DNA of 64,000 nt. Source: Photobacterium aquimaris (GTDB lineage Bacteria; Pseudomonadota; Gammaproteobacteria; Enterobacterales; Vibrionaceae). The translations under genes were made by a program, and so were the position numbers. Where the stretch lies: contig NZ_MSCC01000002.1 of assembly GCF_002954455.1 (NCBI RefSeq), positions 221,501 to 285,500 of the forward strand, given 5' to 3'. Numbering within the stretch: the stretch's first letter is position 1; every line of letters begins with the position of its first letter. Of this stretch, positions 6,418-56,456 are shown one piece after another. The notes below the pieces were generated by a model that did no database searches, had not been told where the DNA came from, and worked only from the letters and a program-made list of their open reading frames with translations.

Positions 6418-6593
6418 ATAAAATTCCTTCTTCAATATTACATGAGCTAAAAAGACATTATGAATATATAGCTGTTAATTATAATGCGCTTTTATTTATC
6501 TTGCTTCAGTCACTAAATACACATTTTTACTCAATATCACATTGCAACAATAACAATGCCCCTAGTAACGATTGTCATCGTTCAAAGCTTTTA

Positions 6594-36702: not shown

Positions 36703-38703
36703 ATGAACTCCGCTCAAAAACCAAAAAAAAATCCGATTGATAAAATATTAATCGAAGCGCCAAGATCACACAAAGATGGTCATTTATTTGTGATCCCTGC
36801 AAATTTAGTTGATTGGTTACCTCAGTATCAACATTTTAAAGGCGTAACCAAAAGTATTATTGAGCTATTGAACATTATTTCATTACGTGGATTATCAAGC
36901 CAAGATGGTATGGTTTCTACGACGGAGCTCATTGAAGCAACAGAAGGGCAGTTAACACGAGCAGCAATTCAACAACGTTTACGAGCCGCGGTTGCAGTTG
37001 GTTTATTTAATCAACAACCAGTACGTTTTGAAGAAGGTCTTGCTGGTAAAACGATGCTTCATCACTTTATCAATCCTGCTTTGCTTATTTCGCAGCTTGG
37101 TACTGGGAGTTTACTCTCTGAACAATTTAAACAGCATGAAAAACAAAAACGTTCTAAAGCCCTTGCTCAAAATCATGTTAATCGCCGTTTACTGACTGAA
37201 TATGGTTTAGGCACTCCGCCTTCAATGCCAGATGAAGCTGATCAGATTGTGGTATCACCGACAAGTTGGGCGGGGATTATTGATCAGGCTTTAGCACCAC
37301 CTCGTACTAAAAAAAGTTATCAAAAAGCCATGGTTGCGATTAGCGGCACTAAAGCGATCATTGAAACACGATCATCAAAGTCGATCATGACTGTTGATGA
37401 TCTTATGACATTATTTGCGTTATTTACATTGACCGTACAATACCATGATCATCATCTTGCGGATTATGAGATCCAACTACGTTCAATGGCGAATAAAACA
37501 CCAGTATATATTACAGATATTTTGGCGCTTCGAGGCAAGAAAGATAGCGGTCCTGCGCGAGATTCTATTCGTGAAAGTATTGATCGCATTGAATTTACTG
37601 ACTTTCAATTGCATGAATTAACCGGCCGTTGGCTGAGTGAAAACATGCCTGAAGGTTTTAAAAGTGATCGATTTAGATTTATAGCTCGTACAATTACAGC
37701 ATCAGAAGAAGCACCTCAAGAAGGTGAAGATGGTGAAATTCGCATCAAACCAAATCTATATATTTTAGTTTGGGAACCTTCCTTTTTTGATGAACTGTTA
37801 ACTCGTGATTATTTCTTCTTGTTCCCGCCAGAAATTTTACGTCAACATACTTTAGTGTTTCAGTTATACACCTTTTTCAGAAGTCGCATGTCTCGTCGTG
37901 TGGTTGATTCAATGCTTTTAAGTGAATTAAATCAAAAGCTTGCTAGGAATATCGAATGGCGTCGCTTTTCTTCAGATATTATTCGTGAATTAAAAAAGTT
38001 AGCTGAAGGAAAAGTGACAGAAACCATGTTTGCGGTAAATTTATGGGGTTATCACTTAACGATTTCTGCTGAAGAAATTGATAAGCGCTACACTGATTAT
38101 CGTATTGACATTAAATCTGATGCTGAAGAAGTCATTCGTTATTCTCGCGCGAAAACAACCAATGAAGGTAAACGTAATATGGCTCCAACAATGCCGAATC
38201 CATTACGTAATGAAATTATGCCTAAGCAAGCATTGGATCAACTCTCAGCGATTATTGACGGTGAATTTGAACCTATTCAGCGTAAAGAATCACGTCCTCG
38301 TGGCCGTTTAGGTCGCCGTATTAAGCTCCGTAAGCACTTAGTTGAAATCAATGCTGATGAGTTAACAATCGTTTTATCTAAATATACTTCTTCAGAAGCG
38401 CTACAACGCAGTATAACTGCTTTATCAGCAATGACTGGTCATCCTGCTGCGACAATAACCGAAGAGTGTCAGGGTTATCTAGAGAAGCTTGATTGGCTGC
38501 ATGTGGCGGGAGAGCGTGTGAGTTATGAAACCCTAAGTAAAACGGTTGAATTGTATAATAGTCGTCAAGATGAACGCCATTTATCCATCGAACGTTTAAT
38601 TTCAGGATTAGCTGTTCGACGCAAAGTATGTAAGCTCGTCCATGAAGGTCATATTACTGAGCAAGTTTTAAGTGCATTAGACGATGTCGCTAAAGGCATT
38701 TGA
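36703..38703 (+). CDS. rctB: chromosome 2 replication initiator RctB
   Basis: A 666-residue protein matching RctB, the initiator unique to Vibrionaceae secondary chromosomes (about 658 residues in V. cholerae). Recognisable blocks are HLFVIPANLVDWLPQYQHFK near the N-terminus, VSPTSWAGIIDQALAPPRTK, a central plasmid-initiator-like pair of winged helices (about 155-480) including YFFLFPPEILRQHTLVFQLY, and the basic RPRGRLGRRIKLRKHLVE segment before the C-terminal regulatory domain. It binds the iterons to start replication and the longer sites to limit it. A short frame of non-coding leader with a possible autoregulatory site precedes the ATG. Confidence 0.96.
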   Translation: MNSAQKPKKNPIDKILIEAPRSHKDGHLFVIPANLVDWLPQYQHFKGVTKSIIELLNIISLRGLSSQDGMVSTTELIEATEGQLTRAAIQQRLRAAVAVGLFNQQPVRFEEGLAGKTMLHHFINPALLISQLGTGSLLSEQFKQHEKQKRSKALAQNHVNRRLLTEYGLGTPPSMPDEADQIVVSPTSWAGIIDQALAPPRTKKSYQKAMVAISGTKAIIETRSSKSIMTVDDLMTLFALFTLTVQYHDHHLADYEIQLRSMANKTPVYITDILALRGKKDSGPARDSIRESIDRIEFTDFQLHELTGRWLSENMPEGFKSDRFRFIARTITASEEAPQEGEDGEIRIKPNLYILVWEPSFFDELLTRDYFFLFPPEILRQHTLVFQLYTFFRSRMSRRVVDSMLLSELNQKLARNIEWRRFSSDIIRELKKLAEGKVTETMFAVNLWGYHLTISAEEIDKRYTDYRIDIKSDAEEVIRYSRAKTTNEGKRNMAPTMPNPLRNEIMPKQALDQLSAIIDGEFEPIQRKESRPRGRLGRRIKLRKHLVEINADELTIVLSKYTSSEALQRSITALSAMTGHPAATITEECQGYLEKLDWLHVAGERVSYETLSKTVELYNSRQDERHLSIERLISGLAVRRKVCKLVHEGHITEQVLSALDDVAKGI

Positions 38704-46401: not shown

Positions 46402-48897
46402 TTATAAACCAATTTGTTCGGTAATAATGGCAATAATTGCCTCTGGTGATTCCGCTTGGCGTAAGCTATCACGGAAACTTTCATGAATAAGTTTGCGGGC
46501 AAGACCTGCAAAGATGCGCATGTGTTGATCACCTTGGTCTTTATTTAGGGTTAGCATGATAACGAAATCAACTTCACCTGAATCAGACATCCAATCAATA
46601 GGTTTATCAAGGTGAGCAATACTGATACTAGAATGACGAATATGGTCAGATTTAGTATGCGGAATCGCAAATCCATGCCCTAAACCGGTTGAGAATACTG
46701 CTTCACGCGCCCATATATCTTCTTCTAACTTATAGGCGTCGTCAGTACGGCCTTGAATACCTAAGTTACCCACTAGCGCTTGGATCACTTGTTCTTTGTT
46801 TGCAAAGTCAGCGCCTTTAAATACACACTGTGTAACTAATATTGGCTTAACTTGAGCTTGAGCATGACGTTGTTCAAGTAATGCCTCGACCTCTTCAATG
46901 GTGGCGCACTCACACGCCTGTGCAAATAGTGTTTGGCTATCAGCGAAGTTGATTTCAGTTAACTGTGCTTTAGTGGCGGCAATCTTTGGTGCGCTCATAC
47001 TGATTTCATCGAGACCTGCGCCAATAAGTAATGGTAATACTTTACTGTCTGCACCAAGTTCACCACATAAACCAACCCATTTACTATGGGCATGCGCAGT
47101 CGTAACCACTTGCTTTAATAAGCGTAAGAAAGCAGGTGCTAAGCTGTTATACAGTTTTGATACACTGGCGTTATCACGATCAACCGCTAATAAATATTGG
47201 GTCATATCGTTTGAGCCGATACTAAAGAAATCTACTTCCTTACAGAATAAATCGACAATAAATGCTACCGATGGAATTTCAACCATGATACCGAGTTGAA
47301 TATCAGCATCAAAAGCGATGTTTTTGGCTGTCAGTTGTTGTTTAATAAATGCTAGTTGCTGCTTAACCCAACGGATCTCTTCAATACTCTGAATCATTGG
47401 AATCATGATTTTTGCTTTGCCATGCACAGAGGCACGTAAAATAGCCGTTAATTGAGTATGGAACAATGCCAAGAACTGTGGGTAAATACGTACCGCACGG
47501 TAACCTAAGAACGGGTTATTTTCATGAGGTAGGGCAAGGTAATCAATCGGCTTATCACCACCAATATCCATGGTACGAATGATGACCGGTTTACCATTGG
47601 CAGCGGCTAATACTTCACGGTAATGATTAAATTGCTCTTCTTCATCGGGTGCTTGCTGGCGATCCATAAACAGCATTTCAGTACGGAATAAACCAATACC
47701 TTCAGCGCCTTGTGCAAAAGCATTATCTGCTTCGACTGAACAGGCAATATTAGCGGCAACTTCGATAGTGTGACCATCAGCAGTGGTCGCTTGCTGGTGG
47801 GCGTACTGGCTTTGCTGTTGTTTAAGCGTATTCGCCAATGTGATGGCACGATCGAAGTAACCACAAACTTCATTGCTAGGCTCAATAGCCAGTACACCTA
47901 ACTGAGCATCAACATAAACATGATGGTTTAATGCTGCTGCACAGTCTTTAATTTCAATCCCTGATAGGGTTGGAACATTAAACGCACGCGCCAAAATCAC
48001 AGTGTGTGAAGTGCTGCCTGCATGAGTTAATACCAAGCCTTGTAATAACGCTTTATCAAGCCCTAAAAATTGACTTGGGGTTAAATCGTTGGCGATCACA
48101 ATACTTGGTTGCTGGAGTGAAAACTCTGCTTGGTTATCAAGTACTGTTGGGTAAGCTGCGGTTAATAATTGGATCGATACATCTTTGATATCCAGTACGC
48201 GTTCTCGTAAGTAACTGCTTGCTGACTGTTCAAGTTGATGACACAGTTTTTCCATCACTGCCAAAATAGCATTAGCCGTCGAGTGGGTTGCTAGCAGTGC
48301 TGTTACGCCGTCAATGAAGCTTGAGTCATTAATAATCGCTAAATGCGCGCTGGTGATTTCCTGCTCGTGGTGTGATCCCGTAGCAATGATGTGATTTAAG
48401 TGGGTACTAACTTGCGCGAGTGCTTGCTCAAAACGCTGTGCTTCATTGTCATCGTGTACTGCTGTTGCAAACTGCTGTGGATCGACTTGACTCATCGCAA
48501 CTAAAACACCACAACCAATACCAGGGGCAAGACGTTTACCAGTGATCAAATGTGGCTGGTGGCGTAACAATGATTGCGGTATTACGATGTCGCTATCATC
48601 AGAAAACGTCTCTAATACCTCATCGCAATGGGGAAATTGTTGTTCAATGTAAGTCTGAAGTGTCTGACATGCTTGTTCACTGTCTGCGCCTTCAAAGCTT
48701 ATTGTGCAGTTATCATTTAATAGCGTATCGGTGCCTACTAAGGCTAAAACACTTTTTGCATCACCGGAATTATTAGTGCGGTGATTGGTTAGTGTAATTT
48801 GACACTCAAATTGGCGGCACTGTTGTTCTAAATGGTTAGCTGGACGAGCGTGAATGCCGTTGGGTAATACACATTGAAACTGAAATTGATGAGTCAT
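46402..48897 (-). CDS. PTS multiphosphoryl transfer protein (HPr-EI-EIIA fusion)
   Basis: An 831-residue soluble phosphotransfer protein. It has an N-terminal HPr-like domain (1-90; NGIHARPANHLEQ with the phospho-His), an enzyme I domain (about 120-670; phospho-His in THAGSTSHTVILA, substrate-binding GIGLFRTEMLFMDR, catalytic Cys in VGLCGELG) and a C-terminal fructose-type EIIA domain (about 690-831; LGHGFAIPHTKS with the phospho-His). Length and order match E. coli FryA/PtsA-type proteins. It passes phosphate from phosphoenolpyruvate to an EIIB. The EIIB gene is 28 bp upstream, but no EIIC gene is present, so the transported sugar, if any, is unknown. Confidence 0.9.
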   Translation of the reverse strand: MTHQFQFQCVLPNGIHARPANHLEQQCRQFECQITLTNHRTNNSGDAKSVLALVGTDTLLNDNCTISFEGADSEQACQTLQTYIEQQFPHCDEVLETFSDDSDIVIPQSLLRHQPHLITGKRLAPGIGCGVLVAMSQVDPQQFATAVHDDNEAQRFEQALAQVSTHLNHIIATGSHHEQEITSAHLAIINDSSFIDGVTALLATHSTANAILAVMEKLCHQLEQSASSYLRERVLDIKDVSIQLLTAAYPTVLDNQAEFSLQQPSIVIANDLTPSQFLGLDKALLQGLVLTHAGSTSHTVILARAFNVPTLSGIEIKDCAAALNHHVYVDAQLGVLAIEPSNEVCGYFDRAITLANTLKQQQSQYAHQQATTADGHTIEVAANIACSVEADNAFAQGAEGIGLFRTEMLFMDRQQAPDEEEQFNHYREVLAAANGKPVIIRTMDIGGDKPIDYLALPHENNPFLGYRAVRIYPQFLALFHTQLTAILRASVHGKAKIMIPMIQSIEEIRWVKQQLAFIKQQLTAKNIAFDADIQLGIMVEIPSVAFIVDLFCKEVDFFSIGSNDMTQYLLAVDRDNASVSKLYNSLAPAFLRLLKQVVTTAHAHSKWVGLCGELGADSKVLPLLIGAGLDEISMSAPKIAATKAQLTEINFADSQTLFAQACECATIEEVEALLEQRHAQAQVKPILVTQCVFKGADFANKEQVIQALVGNLGIQGRTDDAYKLEEDIWAREAVFSTGLGHGFAIPHTKSDHIRHSSISIAHLDKPIDWMSDSGEVDFVIMLTLNKDQGDQHMRIFAGLARKLIHESFRDSLRQAESPEAIIAIITEQIGL

Positions 48898-48925: not shown

Positions 48926-49243
48926 TTATTGGTGAGTTAACAACAGTTGCTGACATTGAGAAAAAATGCGTCGTGGATGCTGTAATGCATCTTGAATAGA
49001 AACTTCTAGACAGCGGTGTTTATTAAAACGATCGCTTTGCTCAACATTGATGTCGGCGGCGAGAATAACAATATCAGCGCGCTCAACATCCTGTTCAGTG
49101 AGGCGATTTTCAATTCCCATTGCTCCTTGGGTTTCGACTTTTATTGTGATTCCAAGTTTTTTTGCTGTCTCTGTGAGCTTGTCGGCAGCCATATAGGTGT
49201 GTGCAATTCCTGTTGGACATGCGGTGATCGCGACAATTCTCAT
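48926..49243 (-). CDS. PTS fructose-type EIIB component
   Basis: A 105-residue fructose-family EIIB. The phosphorylation site is Cys9 in ITACPTGIAHTYMAA, followed by KVETQGAMGIEN and ILAADINV. It would accept phosphate from the EIIA domain of the downstream gene. A good ribosome-binding site (CAGGAGAAAC) precedes the ATG. The order EIIB then HPr-EI-EIIA is clear; the expected membrane EIIC is absent from both sides. Its C-terminus (residues 85-105) departs from the usual family ending. Confidence 0.88.
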   Translation of the reverse strand: MRIVAITACPTGIAHTYMAADKLTETAKKLGITIKVETQGAMGIENRLTEQDVERADIVILAADINVEQSDRFNKHRCLEVSIQDALQHPRRIFSQCQQLLLTHQ

Positions 49244-49570
49244 AGGTTTCTCCTGCTGTTAAATAATTTAGTGCTTGGGCAATGCGCTCAATATAAGCAC
49301 TTCATCGTGAGCAAGATAGAAGAGAAACGACGCTTTTATAGGACATTTGTAACCGTAATAACCAACCGTGATAAGGATCTCATTGCTTTTTAAGCTGGTA
49401 GCGACATAACCTACTAGCATTTTTGTGCGTAGTAAGTGAAGATGATTTAGTTTCTGAAAGGCTATATTGCGAGTTGTTATTGAGTGGTTTGTATTTAAAA
49501 CGGTAGTTAATTAGATGGCAAACAAGAGTGGGGAATATAAAGGAGTATATCAACGCTAATAAGCGATAAA

Positions 49571-49605
49571 TAAAAAGGCAGCATGAGCGGGGGACTGCAT
49601 GCTGC
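49571..49605 (-). terminator. orphan Rho-independent terminator, minus strand
   Basis: On the minus strand, GCAGCATG pairs with CATGCTGC (49598-49605 with 49578-49585) around a 12-nt loop, followed by CTTTTTATTT. No annotated gene on the minus strand ends here, so an unannotated RNA or a lost gene lies to its right. Confidence 0.65.
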
Positions 49606-49837
49606 TAAAGATGTTTCAATAATATAATAATTATATCTATTTAAGCTGTGATTTTATTATTACCCATTTTTTTAAAATAGAAACTGGATAAATATCACTT
49701 TAATAGCACTATGCTATCTAATTGTTTTTTATGTGATATCACGCAGCCTAATATTAATAATTAAACTATCGTTATTGTTGTTATTTAATTAAATACTCAA
49801 CTTTTATAGTGTTCGATAATTTAATAATTATAAACTG

Positions 49838-49939
49838 TGATATTGAGCCAAAATATTCCCATATAGCAGTGGGAGCTTCGTTCCAGCTATTTATAACAGC
49901 TACAAATATGCAGTGAATGCGTAATTAATCCTATATCTC
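49838..49939 (+). promoter_or_regulatory. conserved upstream block, copy 1 (first GH92 gene)
   Basis: About 100 bp nearly identical to 56198-56300, including GTGATATTGAG, TGGGAGCTTCGTTCCA and GCTACAAATATGCAGTGAAT. Within it TGGGAGCTTCGTTCCA is an imperfect inverted repeat (TGGGA/TTCCA). It ends 140 bp before the GH92 start codon. Confidence 0.8.
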
Positions 49940-50078
49940 CATCGATATTTATTTTTAATAATGCTCGTCAATAACGATACAGAATATCATTTAAGAATAA
50001 CGTTCAAATTATGTTCGTGGTCATGAATGATAACTCTGACTGTGAACATCAATTAAATCGATAACAAAAGGATTTGAA

Positions 50079-52979
50079 ATGAAATTCAAACGTACCCTAC
50101 TTGCAATGGCCGTTATTACCGCCACATTTGGCTTAACGGGCTGTGATGAAGAAACCAATAATATTACGGTTACTCACCCTAATAGTGGTGATACGTTGCC
50201 GCCGGTTGATGAAGGGGATAAGCCTGTCTGTCCTCCAACTGGTGATGAAGATTGCGATGATAAACCTAGTACCGAAAAGCCTGTCATTGACATGGGTGTA
50301 CATATTCCTGTTGATTTATCGGGCATGGATGTTACCCGTTATGTTAACCCTTTTATTGGTACTGGTAATTTAGGTAATACTTACCCTGGTGCAACTACAC
50401 CCAATGGTATGGTGCAATTATCGCCTAATAACGGCTCTAATGGTTGGGAATATATCTCTGGTTATTATTATCACGATGCCCGTACCAGTGGTTTCTCTCA
50501 TACTCATCTTTCCGGGGCGGGTGCGGGTGATTTAAATGACATTTTAGTGATGCCGATTAACTCGCGCTCTGATTTTATGATCAACGAAGGCTCCGCCACG
50601 CTTAACTTAGAAGCCTCGCATTTTAAACATAAAGATGAGCAAGCAACGGCGGGTTATTATAAAGTTGATTTACTTGATTATGATATTACTGCTGAGTTAA
50701 CCGCTTCCGATCGTGTTGGTGTCCATCGTTATACGTTCCCGCGTGACCAACAATCAGAAATTATTGTTAACACCGGTTTTAAACTTAACTGGGATTATAC
50801 TTCAGACTCGTTTATTCGTTGGGATAAAGAAAATAACCGTTTGATTGGTCATCGATTATCTGATGGTTGGGCTGCATCTCAGAAAGAATATTTTGTGATG
50901 GAATTTGATCAACCGATTAAAAATGTCCGTTTTGCTTATTACGACAAAGAGACTAAAAAATACGTTAATGCGCCGGCTGATTTTACTGAAATAGGCTCAA
51001 TTAATGGCTCTCAAACCTATGATGCTGTTAATGATCGTGATGTGTTTGGTAAATATCAATATGCGCGCGCTTATGTTGAATTTGATACCGAAAAACAAGG
51101 CTTAACCGTTGAAGCAAAGTTAGCACTATCAAGTACCGCGATTGGTAACGATGGCACTAATAAAGCACCATTAAGTGGTGCATTCTTGAATTTGACTGAA
51201 GTGGCAAATAAAAACTTTGATCAAGTACGTTTAGATGCTACCAAGGAGTGGGAAGCGTTATTAGGTAAAGTAAAAGTTGAAGGCGATGAAGCCTATAAGC
51301 AAACTTTCTATACTGCGATGTACCATGCATTCTTAGGTCAAACCACTCACTCAGATCTTGACGGTAAATATTACCGTGCTTTCCAAGGTCGTAATGCTTA
51401 TCCAAATGGCCGTCCATCGTGGGGTCAAGAAGCACCTTTAGTCGATGATATTCGTTTAGCTGATGCTAACAACGATGGCAAGGCCGACTTTACTCGTTAT
51501 GACACTTTCTCACTGTGGGATACATACCGTAACGTGCAACCACTCGCTTCTATTTTGACCCCAAATTCATTAGCTGATGTGGTGTTGTCGATGTTGTCGT
51601 ACGCAGAAGAAGAATTTACGCCGTTGGATGCAGAAGGTAATGCAGGTCAACCACGTAAAGGTCGTCTACCTGAATGGACATTTAAAGGTAACGAAACCGG
51701 CATGATGATGGGGATGCATTCAACTCCGGTTATTTATGATGTACTGGAAAAAGGCATTCTTGATGCGCGTATGACTGAGCTTGGCTTTAGTCAATTAGAG
51801 CAAGATGACATTAAAGCGCGTTTGATCAATGCGATGGTGACAGATGCACGTAGTGGCTCAGCTGTTTCGTGGATAAAAGAATATGAAAAAAATGGCTGGG
51901 TGCCAGCACAACTACATGATGCAGAAACGGACTCTTACGGTAAGCACTCACCGTTTAAAGACTCATGGACAGCCTCATACTCACTTGAATATTCAATGAA
52001 TGATTGGATGATCGCTAAATCCATTGCCTTGGTGTTTGGTGAAGATGATCCACGTTACACTGAATTTGCTGACCGTTCTAATAACTGGCAAGCACAGTTC
52101 GATTTTGGTGGTGAGCCGAATACACCGTGGAAAGGTTGGTTTAAAGCTCGAGATTATAAAGGTCAATTTATTGATAAGAACTGGACTGATCCTGTCACTG
52201 GTGGAAATACGGGTAAAGACTGGCGTCCTGATATGTTTAATTGGGCGTTCTCAGAGTCAAATGGTTGGCAATACTTCTTTAGCGTGCAACATGATATGCA
52301 TGGTCTAAAAGATCTGATGACCCAAGTTGATCTTAAATCTAACCCAGACGCTAAAGATGGTGCATTATTTGCTGCGCGTTTAGATGAATACTGGTCAACT
52401 TACCCTGATCGTAATGCAGGTGATAACCAATTCCCAGTGTTTAACACCGGTAACGTTGGTCAACATGTTCAAGGTAACGAACCCGATCTTCATGTACCGT
52501 ATTTATATAACTATGTTGGTCAACCATGGAAGACTCAAGCAGCGATTGCGGCATCGACTAACGTTTGTTACGACAACACCGCCGATGGTATTTGTGGTAA
52601 TGATGACTTTGGTACCCTTTCTTCATGGTTTGTATTCCGTGCTCTTGGTTTCTACCCTGTGAATGCGGGCAGTATCTATGAGATTGGTACGCCAATGTTT
52701 GAAACTGCGTCGATTGATGTCGGTAATGGGCAATCGTTTAACGTTACTGCAAAGAACGTCAGTCGCGACAATATATTCATTCAAAATGCGACCTTTAATG
52801 GTAAAGCGTTTAACCGCACTTACTTAACCCATGATGAGATAATGTACGGTGGTGATTTGGTATTCACAATGGGTGATACGCCAAATAAACTGTGGGGATC
52901 GGCTGCAGACTCAGTGCCACCAGATACTGGCATTGGTGAGTTCCTGCATGCTGATTCGTTACCTGCTGGTGCGCGATAA
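50079..52979 (+). CDS. GH92 alpha-mannosidase, lipoprotein
   Basis: A 966-residue glycoside hydrolase of family GH92, calcium-dependent exo-acting alpha-mannosidases. The lipobox ends at Cys22 (FGLTGC), and a low-complexity acidic/proline linker (about 25-80) leads to the N-terminal beta-sandwich domain (YVNPFIGTGNLGNTYPGA, GFSHTHLSGAGAGDLND). The catalytic alpha-barrel domain has FSLWDTYRNVQPL, WTFKGNETGMMMG and the family signature GNEPDLHVPYLYN. It is thus likely anchored to the outer membrane or periplasmic face, trimming mannosides. A second GH92 gene lies 3.5 kb downstream with a shared promoter block. Confidence 0.93.
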   Translation: MKFKRTLLAMAVITATFGLTGCDEETNNITVTHPNSGDTLPPVDEGDKPVCPPTGDEDCDDKPSTEKPVIDMGVHIPVDLSGMDVTRYVNPFIGTGNLGNTYPGATTPNGMVQLSPNNGSNGWEYISGYYYHDARTSGFSHTHLSGAGAGDLNDILVMPINSRSDFMINEGSATLNLEASHFKHKDEQATAGYYKVDLLDYDITAELTASDRVGVHRYTFPRDQQSEIIVNTGFKLNWDYTSDSFIRWDKENNRLIGHRLSDGWAASQKEYFVMEFDQPIKNVRFAYYDKETKKYVNAPADFTEIGSINGSQTYDAVNDRDVFGKYQYARAYVEFDTEKQGLTVEAKLALSSTAIGNDGTNKAPLSGAFLNLTEVANKNFDQVRLDATKEWEALLGKVKVEGDEAYKQTFYTAMYHAFLGQTTHSDLDGKYYRAFQGRNAYPNGRPSWGQEAPLVDDIRLADANNDGKADFTRYDTFSLWDTYRNVQPLASILTPNSLADVVLSMLSYAEEEFTPLDAEGNAGQPRKGRLPEWTFKGNETGMMMGMHSTPVIYDVLEKGILDARMTELGFSQLEQDDIKARLINAMVTDARSGSAVSWIKEYEKNGWVPAQLHDAETDSYGKHSPFKDSWTASYSLEYSMNDWMIAKSIALVFGEDDPRYTEFADRSNNWQAQFDFGGEPNTPWKGWFKARDYKGQFIDKNWTDPVTGGNTGKDWRPDMFNWAFSESNGWQYFFSVQHDMHGLKDLMTQVDLKSNPDAKDGALFAARLDEYWSTYPDRNAGDNQFPVFNTGNVGQHVQGNEPDLHVPYLYNYVGQPWKTQAAIAASTNVCYDNTADGICGNDDFGTLSSWFVFRALGFYPVNAGSIYEIGTPMFETASIDVGNGQSFNVTAKNVSRDNIFIQNATFNGKAFNRTYLTHDEIMYGGDLVFTMGDTPNKLWGSAADSVPPDTGIGEFLHADSLPAGAR

Positions 52980-53019
52980 TTAATAATAAAACATAAGCAT
53001 TAATTGAAATTACTATTCT

Positions 53020-53053
53020 AAAAATCCTACGGTAAACATCGTAGGATTTTTTT
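53020..53053 (+). terminator. Rho-independent terminator after the first GH92 gene
   Basis: An 11-bp perfect stem (AAAATCCTACG at 53021-53031, complement at 53040-53050) with an 8-nt loop and a T-run. Confidence 0.88.
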
Positions 53054-53354
53054 TGTGTTTTTTATATTCAAATCATAATCGATATCAAACATTGTATTGT
53101 TTATGAAGTCATTTATAGAATCAGTGTTTGTTATATTAAGATTTATTTTAAAGTGAAATAAGGCGTAATATTAATAAAATATCTATATGTATAAATAGAA
53201 AAATAAAGCTATTAAGAATATTTGATAGATTATGTATTGTTAATAAATACCACTGGCTGTAAGTAATTTATTGTCACCAGTAAGTGTTACGTTAAATACG
53301 TTGAATATCATTATTTTCAAGGCGCTTAGAATATAAATGGCAATTGGAGATATT
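53054..53354. other. intergenic region upstream of the reductase gene
   Basis: About 300 bp, AT-rich, no gene. It lacks the conserved block found before both GH92 genes. No TorR-type or FNR box was recognised. Confidence 0.4.
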
Positions 53355-56030
53355 ATGCCTATTTCTCGTCGTAACTTTTTAAAATCTGCTATCGGCACCG
53401 CTATTGCTGCAAATGGTTTAACATTATTCCCCGCAAACTTTGCATTTGCTGATGATACAATTTTAATTCCTAGTGCAAGCCACTGGGGACCTTTCTATGG
53501 TGTAGTAAAAGACGGTAAATTAGTCGGTATTCAACCTCGTAAAGAACTTGATCCACAGCCAACTGAAATGTTATTAGAAGGCTTATTAAGCCGAACTTAT
53601 AATAAAACACGCATTCAATATCCAATGGTACGTAAATCATATTTAGAAAATTTAGGTGGTGATACTAAACCTGAATTACGCGGTAAAGAGCCGTTTGTTA
53701 GAGTAAGTTGGGATACGGCATTACAATTAACAGCCAGTGCTATTCTGCATACCATTGAAAATAAAGGTAACCAAGGTATTTTTGACTCATCTTATGATGG
53801 TTGGTCAAATACGGGTTTATTACGCCCACCTGTTGTTCAAGGACGTTTCTTTAATTTAATCGGTGGTTGTAGTACCACTATTGGTGACTATTCAGCAGGT
53901 GCTTCAACCGTTATTCTGCCGCATATTGTCGGTGATATGGAAGTATATTCACCTCAAACAGCGTGGCCTGTTATTGAAGAAAACACCGAAGTATTTGTTT
54001 TAGTTGGCAGCGATCCTTGGAAAACCAACCGAGTTGAGTTTCGTGTAGCTGATCATCAAATGCAAAGCCATTGGCTGAAGTGGAAACAAAAAGGGATTAA
54101 GTTTATTTCAATTAACCCTAAACGAACCACGACAGATCGTAATTTAGACAGTGAGTGGGTATCAATTATTCCAGGTACTGACACTGCGTTATTTAATGCA
54201 ATGGCTTTCCATTTACAAGATCAAAAATTAGCTGATCTTGAATATTTGAAAAAATATACTGTTGGTTATGAAAAATATCTTGATTACTTATTAGGTAAAC
54301 AAGATGGCGTAGCGAAAACTCCTGAGTGGGCGGCTAAAATCACTGGTATTTCAGCTGATGAAATTAAAAAGCTAGCAGTATTATTTAAAACGAAAAAAAC
54401 TCAAATTGCTGCTGGTTGGGCGGTTCAACGTGCCGATCACGGCGAGATGATCCACTGGTCCATTATTAACTTTGCCGCTATGGCGGGTAAAATTGGTAAG
54501 GCTGGTGAAGGCTTTGGTTTTAGTTGGCACTATGGTAACGGCGGTATGCCACAATCAGGTGCATCACTACCTGTAACATTAGGTCAAGGTTTTAACCCTG
54601 TTTCTGCGGGTTGTCCGGTTGTTCTGCAAGCTGAAATGCTACGTAACCCTGGTAAGTCATTTACTTATAATGGTCAAACATTGAAGTTCCCTGATATATC
54701 TATGGTATATAACTCAGGTAATAACTTGTTCTCACACCAACAAAACCTCAATGCTTTGATTAAAGCAATGAATGACAAAGTTGAGACTTATGTTTGTCAG
54801 GATACATGGTGGTGTGCGTCAGCTCGATTTGCCGATATTGTTTTACCCGCAACCAGTGCATTAGAGCGGATTGATATTACTTCTGGCGGTACGTATAGCA
54901 ATAATAAAGTTTATGCTATGCAGCAAGTGATTGAACCTTATGGTGAAAGCTTAGATGACTTTGAAATTTTCCGTCGTTTAGCCAAAATCTTCCATGTAGA
55001 AGATAAGTTCACCACCGGTAAAGATATGATGACGTTGCTGAAAACAGCATATGAATCATCTACTGCCGCGAAAATCAAACCATTTGATGAGTTCTGGAAA
55101 GATGGTGTCACCGTAATGCCAACCCCAGAGAAAGCCGATTACTGGCAACGTCATGGTGCATTTTATGATGATCCAGAGAAATACCCATTACATACGCCAT
55201 CCGGTAAAATTGAGCTGTACAGCGAATCTATCGCTAAAATGAAGCTTGACGATTGCCCACCTGTACCGACATATATGCAGCCGTTTGAATTTTTAGGTAA
55301 TGCTAAAAAAGGTCAATTACATATTCTGAGCCCACATCCATGGATGCGCTTACACTCACAAATGGCAAATGCCGATACCAATAGTTATGAGTGTGTTGAC
55401 GGTCGTCAGTATTTGTTGATTAACGAACAAGATGCGCATGATCAAGGTATTGTTGATGGCGATCTTGTTGAATTACATAATGAACGTGGCGCACTACTTT
55501 GTGGTGCTAAATTATCAAAAGAAGTTCGTCGCGGTGTTGCTTGTCTCCATGAAGGCGCATGGTTACAGTTAGATAAATTAGGCCGTTGTAATAGTGGCCA
55601 GATTAATATTCTGACATCAGATCAATCATGTGGTGGACTAAGCCAAGGTACCAGTGCGAATACCTGTTTAGCGTATTATAAAAAATGTACTAATCCATGC
55701 TCACCTAATAAAGCTTATGAGCCGCCAATGATAGAACAACCTACAGGGCCTAATGATGGTTCTATTTTGCCAATGGTTGATTTGAACATTGATGGTCGTA
55801 TTGCCTTATTGCATAAAGCTAATGCGGGTAAAGCAGCGCCAAAGATTAGCCGTGGTCAAGAAATTTTCTATGCTAGTTGTACTATGTGTCACGCAGCACC
55901 GAACCCAGCAGCACATACGCGTGCTCAATGGGCTGGGATCACCCAAAGTATGTTCCCTCGAGCAGGGTTAAGTGCCGCTGATCGTAAACTTGTTTTAGAA
56001 TATTTAGATAAACACGCAGCAAAAGCATAG
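53355..56030 (+). CDS. TMAO/DMSO-reductase-type molybdoenzyme with fused C-terminal cytochrome c domain
   Basis: About 891 residues from the ATG at 53355, chosen because TTGGAG lies just upstream and the Tat motif SRRNFLKSA then sits at residues 4-12. The body (about 40-780) is a bis-MGD molybdoenzyme of the TorA/BisC group: ASHWGPFYGVVKDGKLVGIQP, a Ser-containing GWSNTG segment at the expected molybdenum-ligand position, and HILSPHPWMRLHSQMAN. The last 60 residues hold CTMCH (Cys842, Cys845, His846) and resemble the C-terminal monohaem domain of TorC, with HTRAQWAGITQSM and LVLEYLDKHA. Such a fusion would deliver electrons in cis. The substrate may be TMAO or another S/N-oxide. No torC or torD is near. 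Confidence 0.88.
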   Translation: MPISRRNFLKSAIGTAIAANGLTLFPANFAFADDTILIPSASHWGPFYGVVKDGKLVGIQPRKELDPQPTEMLLEGLLSRTYNKTRIQYPMVRKSYLENLGGDTKPELRGKEPFVRVSWDTALQLTASAILHTIENKGNQGIFDSSYDGWSNTGLLRPPVVQGRFFNLIGGCSTTIGDYSAGASTVILPHIVGDMEVYSPQTAWPVIEENTEVFVLVGSDPWKTNRVEFRVADHQMQSHWLKWKQKGIKFISINPKRTTTDRNLDSEWVSIIPGTDTALFNAMAFHLQDQKLADLEYLKKYTVGYEKYLDYLLGKQDGVAKTPEWAAKITGISADEIKKLAVLFKTKKTQIAAGWAVQRADHGEMIHWSIINFAAMAGKIGKAGEGFGFSWHYGNGGMPQSGASLPVTLGQGFNPVSAGCPVVLQAEMLRNPGKSFTYNGQTLKFPDISMVYNSGNNLFSHQQNLNALIKAMNDKVETYVCQDTWWCASARFADIVLPATSALERIDITSGGTYSNNKVYAMQQVIEPYGESLDDFEIFRRLAKIFHVEDKFTTGKDMMTLLKTAYESSTAAKIKPFDEFWKDGVTVMPTPEKADYWQRHGAFYDDPEKYPLHTPSGKIELYSESIAKMKLDDCPPVPTYMQPFEFLGNAKKGQLHILSPHPWMRLHSQMANADTNSYECVDGRQYLLINEQDAHDQGIVDGDLVELHNERGALLCGAKLSKEVRRGVACLHEGAWLQLDKLGRCNSGQINILTSDQSCGGLSQGTSANTCLAYYKKCTNPCSPNKAYEPPMIEQPTGPNDGSILPMVDLNIDGRIALLHKANAGKAAPKISRGQEIFYASCTMCHAAPNPAAHTRAQWAGITQSMFPRAGLSAADRKLVLEYLDKHAAKA

Positions 56031-56153
56031 TAACGTTATTTGTTATTATATTTTGGTGTGAAGTAACTTAACTAGCTCATATAGTTAATATAAATCCCAT
56101 GACTTTTGTTGTGGGATTTTTTATTTAAAAATAGTCGAATTAATTAAACAGTC

Positions 56154-56195
56154 TAATAAATAATAAATAATAAATAATAAATAATAAATAATAAA
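56154..56195. repeat. 7-bp microsatellite (TAATAAA)6
   Basis: Six perfect tandem copies of TAATAAA from 56154 to 56195, directly before the conserved block upstream of the second GH92 gene. Confidence 0.9.
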
Positions 56196-56197
56196 TA

Positions 56198-56300
56198 GTG
56201 ATATTGAGTCAAAATATCTAAATATAACAATGGGAGCTTAGTTCCAACGATTTATAACCGCTACAAATATGCAGTGAATGCGTAATTTATCCTATATCTC
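56198..56300 (+). promoter_or_regulatory. conserved upstream block, copy 2 (second GH92 gene)
   Basis: Counterpart of 49838-49939, with the same order of elements (GTGATATTGAG, TGGGAGCTTAGTTCCA, GCTACAAATATGCAGTGAAT, CCTATATCTC). It ends 157 bp before the second GH92 start. The central TGGGA/TTCCA inverted repeat is conserved. Confidence 0.8.
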
Positions 56301-56456
56301 AGTGTTTTTTTATTCTTAATAATATAGCCACAATACGGTGATTATTATTATTCAAGCGCGAATAAATAATATCTACCTAATAAATGAGATTGTTTTAATA
56401 CTATTACTATCGCTTTGATAATTAAGTGATGTAATACATAAAAGGATGGATATACG

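Follow-up and report, generated by a model that had tools for sequence, protein, structure and literature searches.

In the araBAD promoter of Escherichia coli, CRP binds near -92 and an AraC-type direct repeat lies between CRP and the -10 hexamer. This arrangement resembles the one predicted for two non-coding blocks in the bacterium Photobacterium aquimaris, each of which precedes a gene of family GH92. The regulator, the sugar and the sequences differ, and the likeness says nothing on looping. The blocks lie in a stretch of 64,000 nucleotides, here called the window, that covers G000:C2:221501-285500 of a 4.5 Mb genome in 10 contigs (the own genome, G000). An RctB gene at window positions 36703-38703 identifies the contig as the second chromosome of a member of the Vibrionales. 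The genome has five GH92 genes, named A to E, and A and B are the two in the window.

A closer parallel is the mannose system of Vibrio cholerae. There, ManR (VC1825), a protein of the AraC type, activates its own gene as well as manP-manA (VC1826-1827) and VC1820-1824. Its ligand is mannose-6-phosphate, and its sites hold the word AATCC, which is reported to be important for binding. The site before manP is placed at -61 to -65, with the transcription start 30 bp before the ATG (PMC9392796). A CRP site identified by chromatin immunoprecipitation sequencing (ChIP-seq), CGAGATCTAAATCACA, lies between VC1825 and VC1826 (PMC6050953, in its list of sites). In Bacteroides thetaiotaomicron, a regulator of the GntR family, also called ManR, joins mannose uptake and extracellular alpha-mannosidases in one regulon (PMC3878776). 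The same joining is suggested for the present genome, through a regulator of an unrelated family. Searches among open-licence papers listed none that describes GH92 genes as members of a ManR regulon.

The two blocks are probably promoter and operator regions of the ManR type, by which GH92 genes become part of the mannose regulon. The probability given to this reading is about 0.77, and membership of the blocks in the regulon is regarded as provisional. The blocks belong to the sole direct repeat in window positions 40000-64000 (seed 12, minimum 40 nt), which joins 49816-49962 to 56177-56323 over 147 nt at 82% identity. The initial annotation, made from the DNA alone, had described near-identical blocks before moderately similar genes. 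This description holds, since the 111-nt core of A and B is 84% identical and the encoded proteins are 32% identical. Also correct are the distances to the start codons (140 bp for A and 157 bp for B), the assignment of both genes to GH92, and the presence of a TGGGA/TTCCA dyad. The geometry common to A and B runs about 23 bp beyond the ends given there and reaches a -10-like hexamer.

Further copies of the block can be found in the same genome and in its relatives. When the block is used as a DNA query, one more place in its own genome matches strongly, G000:C2:310530-310634, before GH92 gene C; a match at C2:355556-355579 is inside a coding frame and was taken as chance. A genus comparison set of 52 genomes, 16 of them with at least one GH92 gene, holds 22 copies (21 full and one partial) in 11 genomes. 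All of them, including those of A, B and C, precede GH92 genes. The partial copy, in G027, lacks the upstream part. A model trained on GH92 blocks alone (R1) used 19 of the 22 copies, leaving out the near-duplicates L071 and L083 and the partial L064. At E<=1e-8 it returns the same 22 places in the 52 genomes and, with stricter filters for large sets, the same 11 genomes in a family set of 296 Vibrionaceae genomes; the E-values of this model and of the one described below are rough by the tool's own statement. Among 52 fetched stretches upstream of GH92 genes, 19 match the core at no fewer than 32 of 39 positions, and in these it ends 76-164 bp before the start; together with A, B and C of the own genome they make up the 22 copies.

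Conservation inside the block is uneven. Across the 19 aligned blocks, identity between the A/B and C groups is 80% in an upstream element, 81% in the box GYTACAAANANNCAGTGAATGC, 87% in the next seven bases and 88% in ATCCTATATCNCC. It falls to 43% and 50% in the two longer spacers and to 49% at the dyad position. The dyad, TGGGAGC-TT(C/A)-GTTCCA, had been put forward by the initial annotation as part of what is conserved, but is found in only five of these blocks (G000_A, G000_B, G001_A, G075_A and G066_B), and comparison with the others led to its rejection as the conserved core. A search for the 16-mer dyad with up to three mismatches returned A and B only, where 1.01 places were expected and 25 of 100 shuffles gave at least two. 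By this test the dyad alone is unremarkable, and what gives it weight is where it stands in the block.

In most relatives the slot of the dyad reads as a CRP-type site. Other A/B blocks have TGAGA-N6-TCACA or TGCGA-N6-TCACA there, C blocks have TATGC-N6-TCACA, and the G008 blocks have CCTGC- or TATGT-N6-TCACA. These slots were scored with a CRP matrix built from 30 V. cholerae ChIP-seq sites (P<=1e-3, from Table 1 of PMC6050953, with VC1825<>VC1826 deliberately excluded). The scores are 11.65 to 15.18 for six A/B blocks of G061, G063, G066, G012 and G022, 9.27 to 10.28 for three C dyads, and 2.67 and 6.59 for the two G008 blocks. The window's A and B, in which the slot has been altered, score -1.16 and -0.67.

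The link to mannose comes from the other places that R1 recognizes. R1 also matches promoters of the phosphotransferase system (PTS), mostly through the part that runs from the CRP site to the -10. Its matches in the own genome outside the window precede a frw-type PTS operon, a gene for a GH2 protein with mannosidase domains (both in L155) and a PTS EIIABC gene, called manP, that lies beside manA and an AraC gene (L156); in the window it matches before the EIIB and fused HPr-EI-EIIA genes. The first place outside mannose or mannoside genes appears at E 0.033. A match at G000:C1:1466969-1467028 is inside a coding frame and was set aside. PTS promoters of this class are also present in genomes without GH92 genes (L158-L162, L164, L165, L167, L169 and L170). 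For 24 R1 matches of the genus and own-genome scans, fetched by choice, the neighbouring frames were read by eye, and 22 precede a PTS or mannoside gene. The other two are in L157, inside a frame, and in L159, where one of two matches precedes a transposase-like frame.

Loci of manR were collected by a contig search with the AraC protein encoded beside manA. In the best 80 of 153 confirmed loci (842 kb), R1 has a match anywhere in the locus in 74 at E<=1 and in 62 at E<=0.01; no match at E<=1 was found in L181, L182, L198, L199, L228 and L236. These loci gave 110 R1 matches, 94 of them at E<=0.05, from which 66 were picked by hand. After four duplicate sequences and L176 had been dropped, 61 promoters from 57 manR loci of other species remained, and they form a second model (R2). 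Those left out were mostly matches of the P. phosphoreum group, further matches in a locus and weak ones.

Searched against the whole own genome, R2 has eight matches at E<=0.001. Each of them precedes a transcription unit for mannose or mannosides, four of these being GH92 genes; the next place is at 0.118. The sites precede manP (8.5e-14), the frw-type PTS operon (3.4e-10), the GH2 gene (4.7e-7), GH92 E (2.1e-6), GH92 C (2.8e-6), the EIIB-FPr genes (7.7e-5), GH92 B (4.8e-4) and GH92 A (1.0e-3). Within the window and with filters off, EIIB-FPr, B and A rank first, and the next place has an E-value of 0.47. A sense-strand R2 site is present at E<=0.001 in 33 of the 52 stretches upstream of GH92 genes, and at 0.016 in one more. 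The sites end 77-166 bp before the start in 32 of the 33 and 330 bp before it in the remaining one, and 14 of the 33 stretches lack the full block. The search for further copies and the comparison with related species, both proposed in the initial annotation, support the shared control element that it suspected. The mannoside regulator that it took to be unknown is probably not so, as the core matches promoters of manR loci, whose regulator is of the class known from V. cholerae.

At L155:1914-4421, on the minus strand, lies the gene of the GH2-type protein, which has mannosidase Ig-like domains; the gene stands behind its own R2 site. A beta-mannosidase-like GH2 enzyme may therefore belong to the regulon as well.

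Promoters of the two kinds have a common geometry. TCAC, 16 bp and TACA follow one another in all 61 PTS promoters and in 16 of the 19 fetched GH92 blocks, the other three having the TTCCA dyad. The box, TCCAGTAA, opens a direct repeat whose second half, TnCACTAT, follows 20 bp on. Counted from the first base of half-site 2, a -10-like hexamer begins at an offset of 28 bp in 36 of the 61 PTS promoters (next commonest offset 11) and in 21 of 21 GH92 promoters. The predicted transcription starts of A and B place the centre of the dyad near -91.5 and the half-sites near -60 and -40. Half-site 1 would lie about 60 bp before the predicted start in A and B; the published position of the ManR site is -61 to -65.

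The two half-sites differ in where TCC is found. Half-site 1 holds TCC in all 61 PTS promoters (AATCC in 37, TATCC in 21, others in three), a count for which the register was anchored by a pattern that holds TCC and so favours it there; R1, through which the set was picked, lacks it. Half-site 2 of the PTS set has TCC in 18 of 61 promoters, TGC in 18 and TAC in 15. In the promoters of the GH92 A-C type, half-site 2 has TCC in all 21, with AATCC in A and TATCC in B, and half-site 1 lacks TCC in both. The GH92 E promoters have TCC in the box.

Promoter DNA of Vibrio mimicus connects these boxes to the published site. Its manP promoter reads AGCGATCTAAATCACA, 14 bases and GTTACAATTGTCCAGTAAATG, and its TCACA arm matches CGAGATCTAAATCACA. 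TGTCC would lie at about -62 to -58 if transcription started 30 bp before the ATG, as in V. cholerae. From this position and the CRP arm we infer that the published V. cholerae ManR site is the box described here.

Genes for suitable regulators are present. A ManR orthologue with an AraC helix-turn-helix domain is encoded beside manA (L156:5523-6377). It is 67% identical to the V. mimicus protein and 95-99% identical to those of Photobacterium malacitanum, P. kishitanii, P. piscicola, P. phosphoreum, P. iliopiscarium and P. carnosum, which places the genome in the group of these species. A paralogue, called ManR2 (L155:4632-5474), is 61% identical to ManR and lies beside the frw-type PTS genes. 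Matches to ManR2 of at least 76% identity occur in 17 of the 52 genomes, including all 11 that have the block. The C-terminal DNA-binding regions of the two proteins are much alike, and both may act on the GH92 promoters.

In its AraC-type activator, the order and spacing of TCAC, TACA, box and second half-site, and the box near -60 of a predicted start, the system resembles that of V. cholerae. It differs in targets, which in the own genome include GH92 and GH2 enzymes, and in the GH92 A-C promoters, which have TCC in half-site 2 only and an extra upstream element. In A and B, the TGGGA/TTCCA dyad stands in place of the CRP arm.

From the DNA, a mechanism can be inferred for these promoters that extends to binding, effector, induction, start sites and the paralogue that acts. 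Read downstream, a block would offer an element specific to GH92 A-C, the slot near -91.5, the direct repeat near -60 and -40, and the -10 hexamer. A ManR-type AraC activator, either ManR or ManR2, would bind the direct repeat of half-sites, respond to mannose-6-phosphate and recruit RNA polymerase. Surface mannosidases would then be produced together with mannose uptake and ManA.

A more specific history can be proposed for A and B, although it is rather doubtful as a whole. In one Photobacterium lineage, the palindrome TGGGAGC-N3-GTTCCA would have taken over the 16-bp slot of the catabolite-control site in GH92 promoters, and gene conversion would have carried it from one paralogous promoter to another. 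The activator's TCC contact would meanwhile have moved from the distal to the proximal half-site. If this replacement took place, the surface mannosidases would answer to mannose and a second dimeric regulator, and no longer to glucose through CRP.

If the blocks do belong to the ManR regulon, that regulon, which in V. cholerae covers PTS genes, manA and manR, would be extended to enzymes that release mannose outside the cell. One switch would then serve the trimming, uptake and use of mannosides. A geometry fixed across genera, together with changed sites in the GH92 promoters, would make a natural set for studying the exchange of AraC half-sites and CRP arms as a regulon grows.

Several observations weigh against placing the blocks in the ManR regulon. 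Half-site 1 holds TCC in none of the 21 GH92 A-C promoters (TGC in seven, GCC in seven, TAC in five, GGC in two). Of the eight R2 sites, those of A and B score lowest, and both blocks lack a CRP site that scores like the V. cholerae ChIP-seq sites (see the table below; the V. cholerae manR-manP site scores 13.75). No sense-strand R2 site at E<=0.1 was found in 18 of the 52 GH92 stretches, some of which are second in a tandem pair or cut off. GH92 D has a weak R2 match of 8.0 bits that is not among the whole-genome sites; a TCAC, 16 bp, TCCAG box can be read upstream of it by eye. The spacing of the PTS promoters in R2 is not independent of R1, since they were picked through R1 matches. A second -10-like hexamer at offset 21 in 13 of 21 GH92 promoters means that the -10 is not unique. 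In V. cholerae, the CRP site between VC1825 and VC1826 is marked as not CRP-regulated in the same list (PMC6050953), and cAMP altered manP expression little in the ManR study (PMC9392796). AATCC was not found in the V. mimicus stretch. Nine of the 11 block-bearing genomes form one close group, in which block and ManR2 share descent, and their co-occurrence is therefore weak evidence for ManR2. Membership in the regulon is provisional because half-site 1 lacks TCC, because A and B have no CRP site and because binding is a prediction. The V. cholerae results on CRP, the second -10 candidate and the absence of AATCC in V. mimicus lower the confidence slightly.

The altered half-site 1 could also mean that the core merely descends from a ManR-type promoter, with A to C now driven by another regulator at the upstream TGTGATATTGAG element, at half-site 1 or at the dyad. 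Such a change of hands is unlikely. It would account for the missing TCC in all 21 A-C promoters, for an upstream element specific to them and for the loss of the CRP arm to a dyad whose arms are identical in five copies, and a further AraC gene (L155:7515-8306) is available beside the frw-type PTS genes. However, half-site 2, the spacing and the -10 geometry have been kept, and GH92 E of the same genome has a TCC box. The upstream element itself occurs at eight places in the genome with up to three mismatches, against three for a reversed control pattern; with none to two mismatches it is limited to A, B, C and window 6522-6541, where it stands between two convergent frames. It has no R2 match in the window. 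As a CRP site it was rejected on inconsistent scores, 7.06 in A, 3.22 in C and -1.28 in B.

Gene conversion between neighbours is better seen as an addition to ManR-type control than as a substitute for it. Block A of G000 is 84% identical to block B of its own genome, but 79% and 77% to the A blocks of G066 and G063, although the A proteins of these species agree at 93-95% over roughly their first 380 residues. The A-B tract of G000 also takes in spacer that varies elsewhere. In G063 the two blocks are 85% alike. On the other side, the G066 pair reaches only 77%, and comparison of the G000 A block with those of the close relatives G001 and G075 gives 93-98%. Concerted evolution of A and B is likely in part, on few sequences. 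The initial annotation had offered recent conversion as an alternative to control, and it probably contributed to the likeness in this lineage. As the only cause, with no functional meaning, it is very improbable: promoters of C, two from G008 and those of PTS genes in other genera repeat the core with the same geometry, and between A/B and C the identity is 80-88% in the boxes but drops to 43-50% in the two long spacers. Even less probable is a structured leader RNA or riboswitch, suggested there too and suited to a block within the 5' region of both genes. The 19 sequences yield no consensus structure, both blocks fold no better than shuffles on either strand (z-scores 0.00 to 0.12), the window has no Rfam match at gathering scores, and the block ends upstream of the predicted -10. 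At E<=1, one Rfam match in 49400-50080 reached 19.2 bits against a gathering score of 150 and was taken as chance. A dispersed repeat beside unrelated genes, which the initial annotation had named as its own refutation, would agree with more than one copy per genome; with 22 of 22 copies, including the three strong ones of the own genome, before GH92 genes, it has practically no probability.

Table 1. Features of the two blocks and of neighbouring genes in the window.
Feature	Position	Strand	Remarks
Upstream element TGTGATATTGAGCCAAAATA, block A	49836..49855	+	Specific to GH92 A-C type promoters; 80% identical between A/B and C groups, adjoining spacer 43%
Dyad TGGGAGCTTCGTTCCA, block A	49870..49885	+	In the CRP-type slot of related promoters; CRP matrix score -1.16
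ManR-like box with half-site 1, block A	49899..49920	+	TGC at 49909-49911 where PTS promoters have TCC
Half-site 2 AATCCTATAT, block A	49927..49936	+	20 bp after half-site 1; contains AATCC
Predicted -10 AATAAT, GH92 gene A	49957..49962	+	Predicted transcription start near 49969
GH92 gene A, 966 aa	50079..52979	+	Lipobox-like LTGC near start, read by eye
Upstream element AGTGATATTGAGTCAAAATA, block B	56197..56216	+	From alignment and element search
Dyad TGGGAGCTTAGTTCCA, block B	56231..56246	+	In CRP position; CRP matrix score -0.67
ManR-like box with half-site 1, block B	56260..56281	+	TGC at 56270-56272
Half-site 2 TATCCTATAT, block B	56288..56297	+	TCC at 56290-56292; word TATCC, as in half-site 1 of 21 of 61 PTS promoters
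Predicted -10 AATAAT, GH92 gene B	56318..56323	+	Predicted transcription start near 56330
GH92 gene B, 841 aa	56457..58982	+	Lipobox-like LSGC near start, read by eye
Third promoter of the class: CRP-like TGAGATCCTTATCACG, then GGTTACAAATGTCC	49314..49384 (R1 match 49314-49404)	-	Before PTS genes
PTS EIIB gene, fructose/mannose type	48926..49243	-	Frame read by eye; like frames in L169 and L172
Fused HPr-EI-EIIA (FPr) PTS gene behind EIIB	46402..48897	-	From domain annotation

The surroundings of the blocks vary between relatives. The first block lies about 0.5 kb from a divergent EIIB-type site in G000, G001, G063, G075, G012, G022, G061 and G067; in G066 the distance is 13 kb. The gene order is A-B in G000, G063 and G066 and B-A in G012, G022, G061 and G067. 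In the window, a molybdopterin oxidoreductase gene (53337-56030, plus strand) lies between GH92 A and B; its product has a twin-arginine-like start and a C-terminal CTMCH, both read by eye. The gap between the catalytic domains of A and B is 4.4 kb in the window, as against about 1.4 kb in G063, G066 and G012, where the oxidoreductase gene is probably absent from this position. A tandem array with a 7-bp unit (AATAAAT, by eye) at 56156-56197 abuts the upstream end of block B.

In L159 (3271-5091, on G029:C2), the PTS promoter core occurs twice, with the transposase-like frame between the copies. In G027, whose GH92 block lacks the upstream part, an AraC-type gene on the minus strand (G027:C54:196658-197467) encodes a protein 31% identical to ManR2 and has two GH92 genes as neighbours.

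Two further elements are conserved in the stretch that separates the EIIB promoter from GH92 A. One is the palindrome GTGATATCAC at 49733-49742 (within 49703-49746). The other, at 49571-49606 on the minus strand, is a stem-loop followed by a T run, with a z-score of -3.73 and a paired change in G075. The 191-bp stretch with the stem-loop matches no Rfam family at gathering scores. It is present as one copy adjoining the block in nine of the 52 genomes, with a short weak match in a tenth, and could possibly be a small RNA gene.

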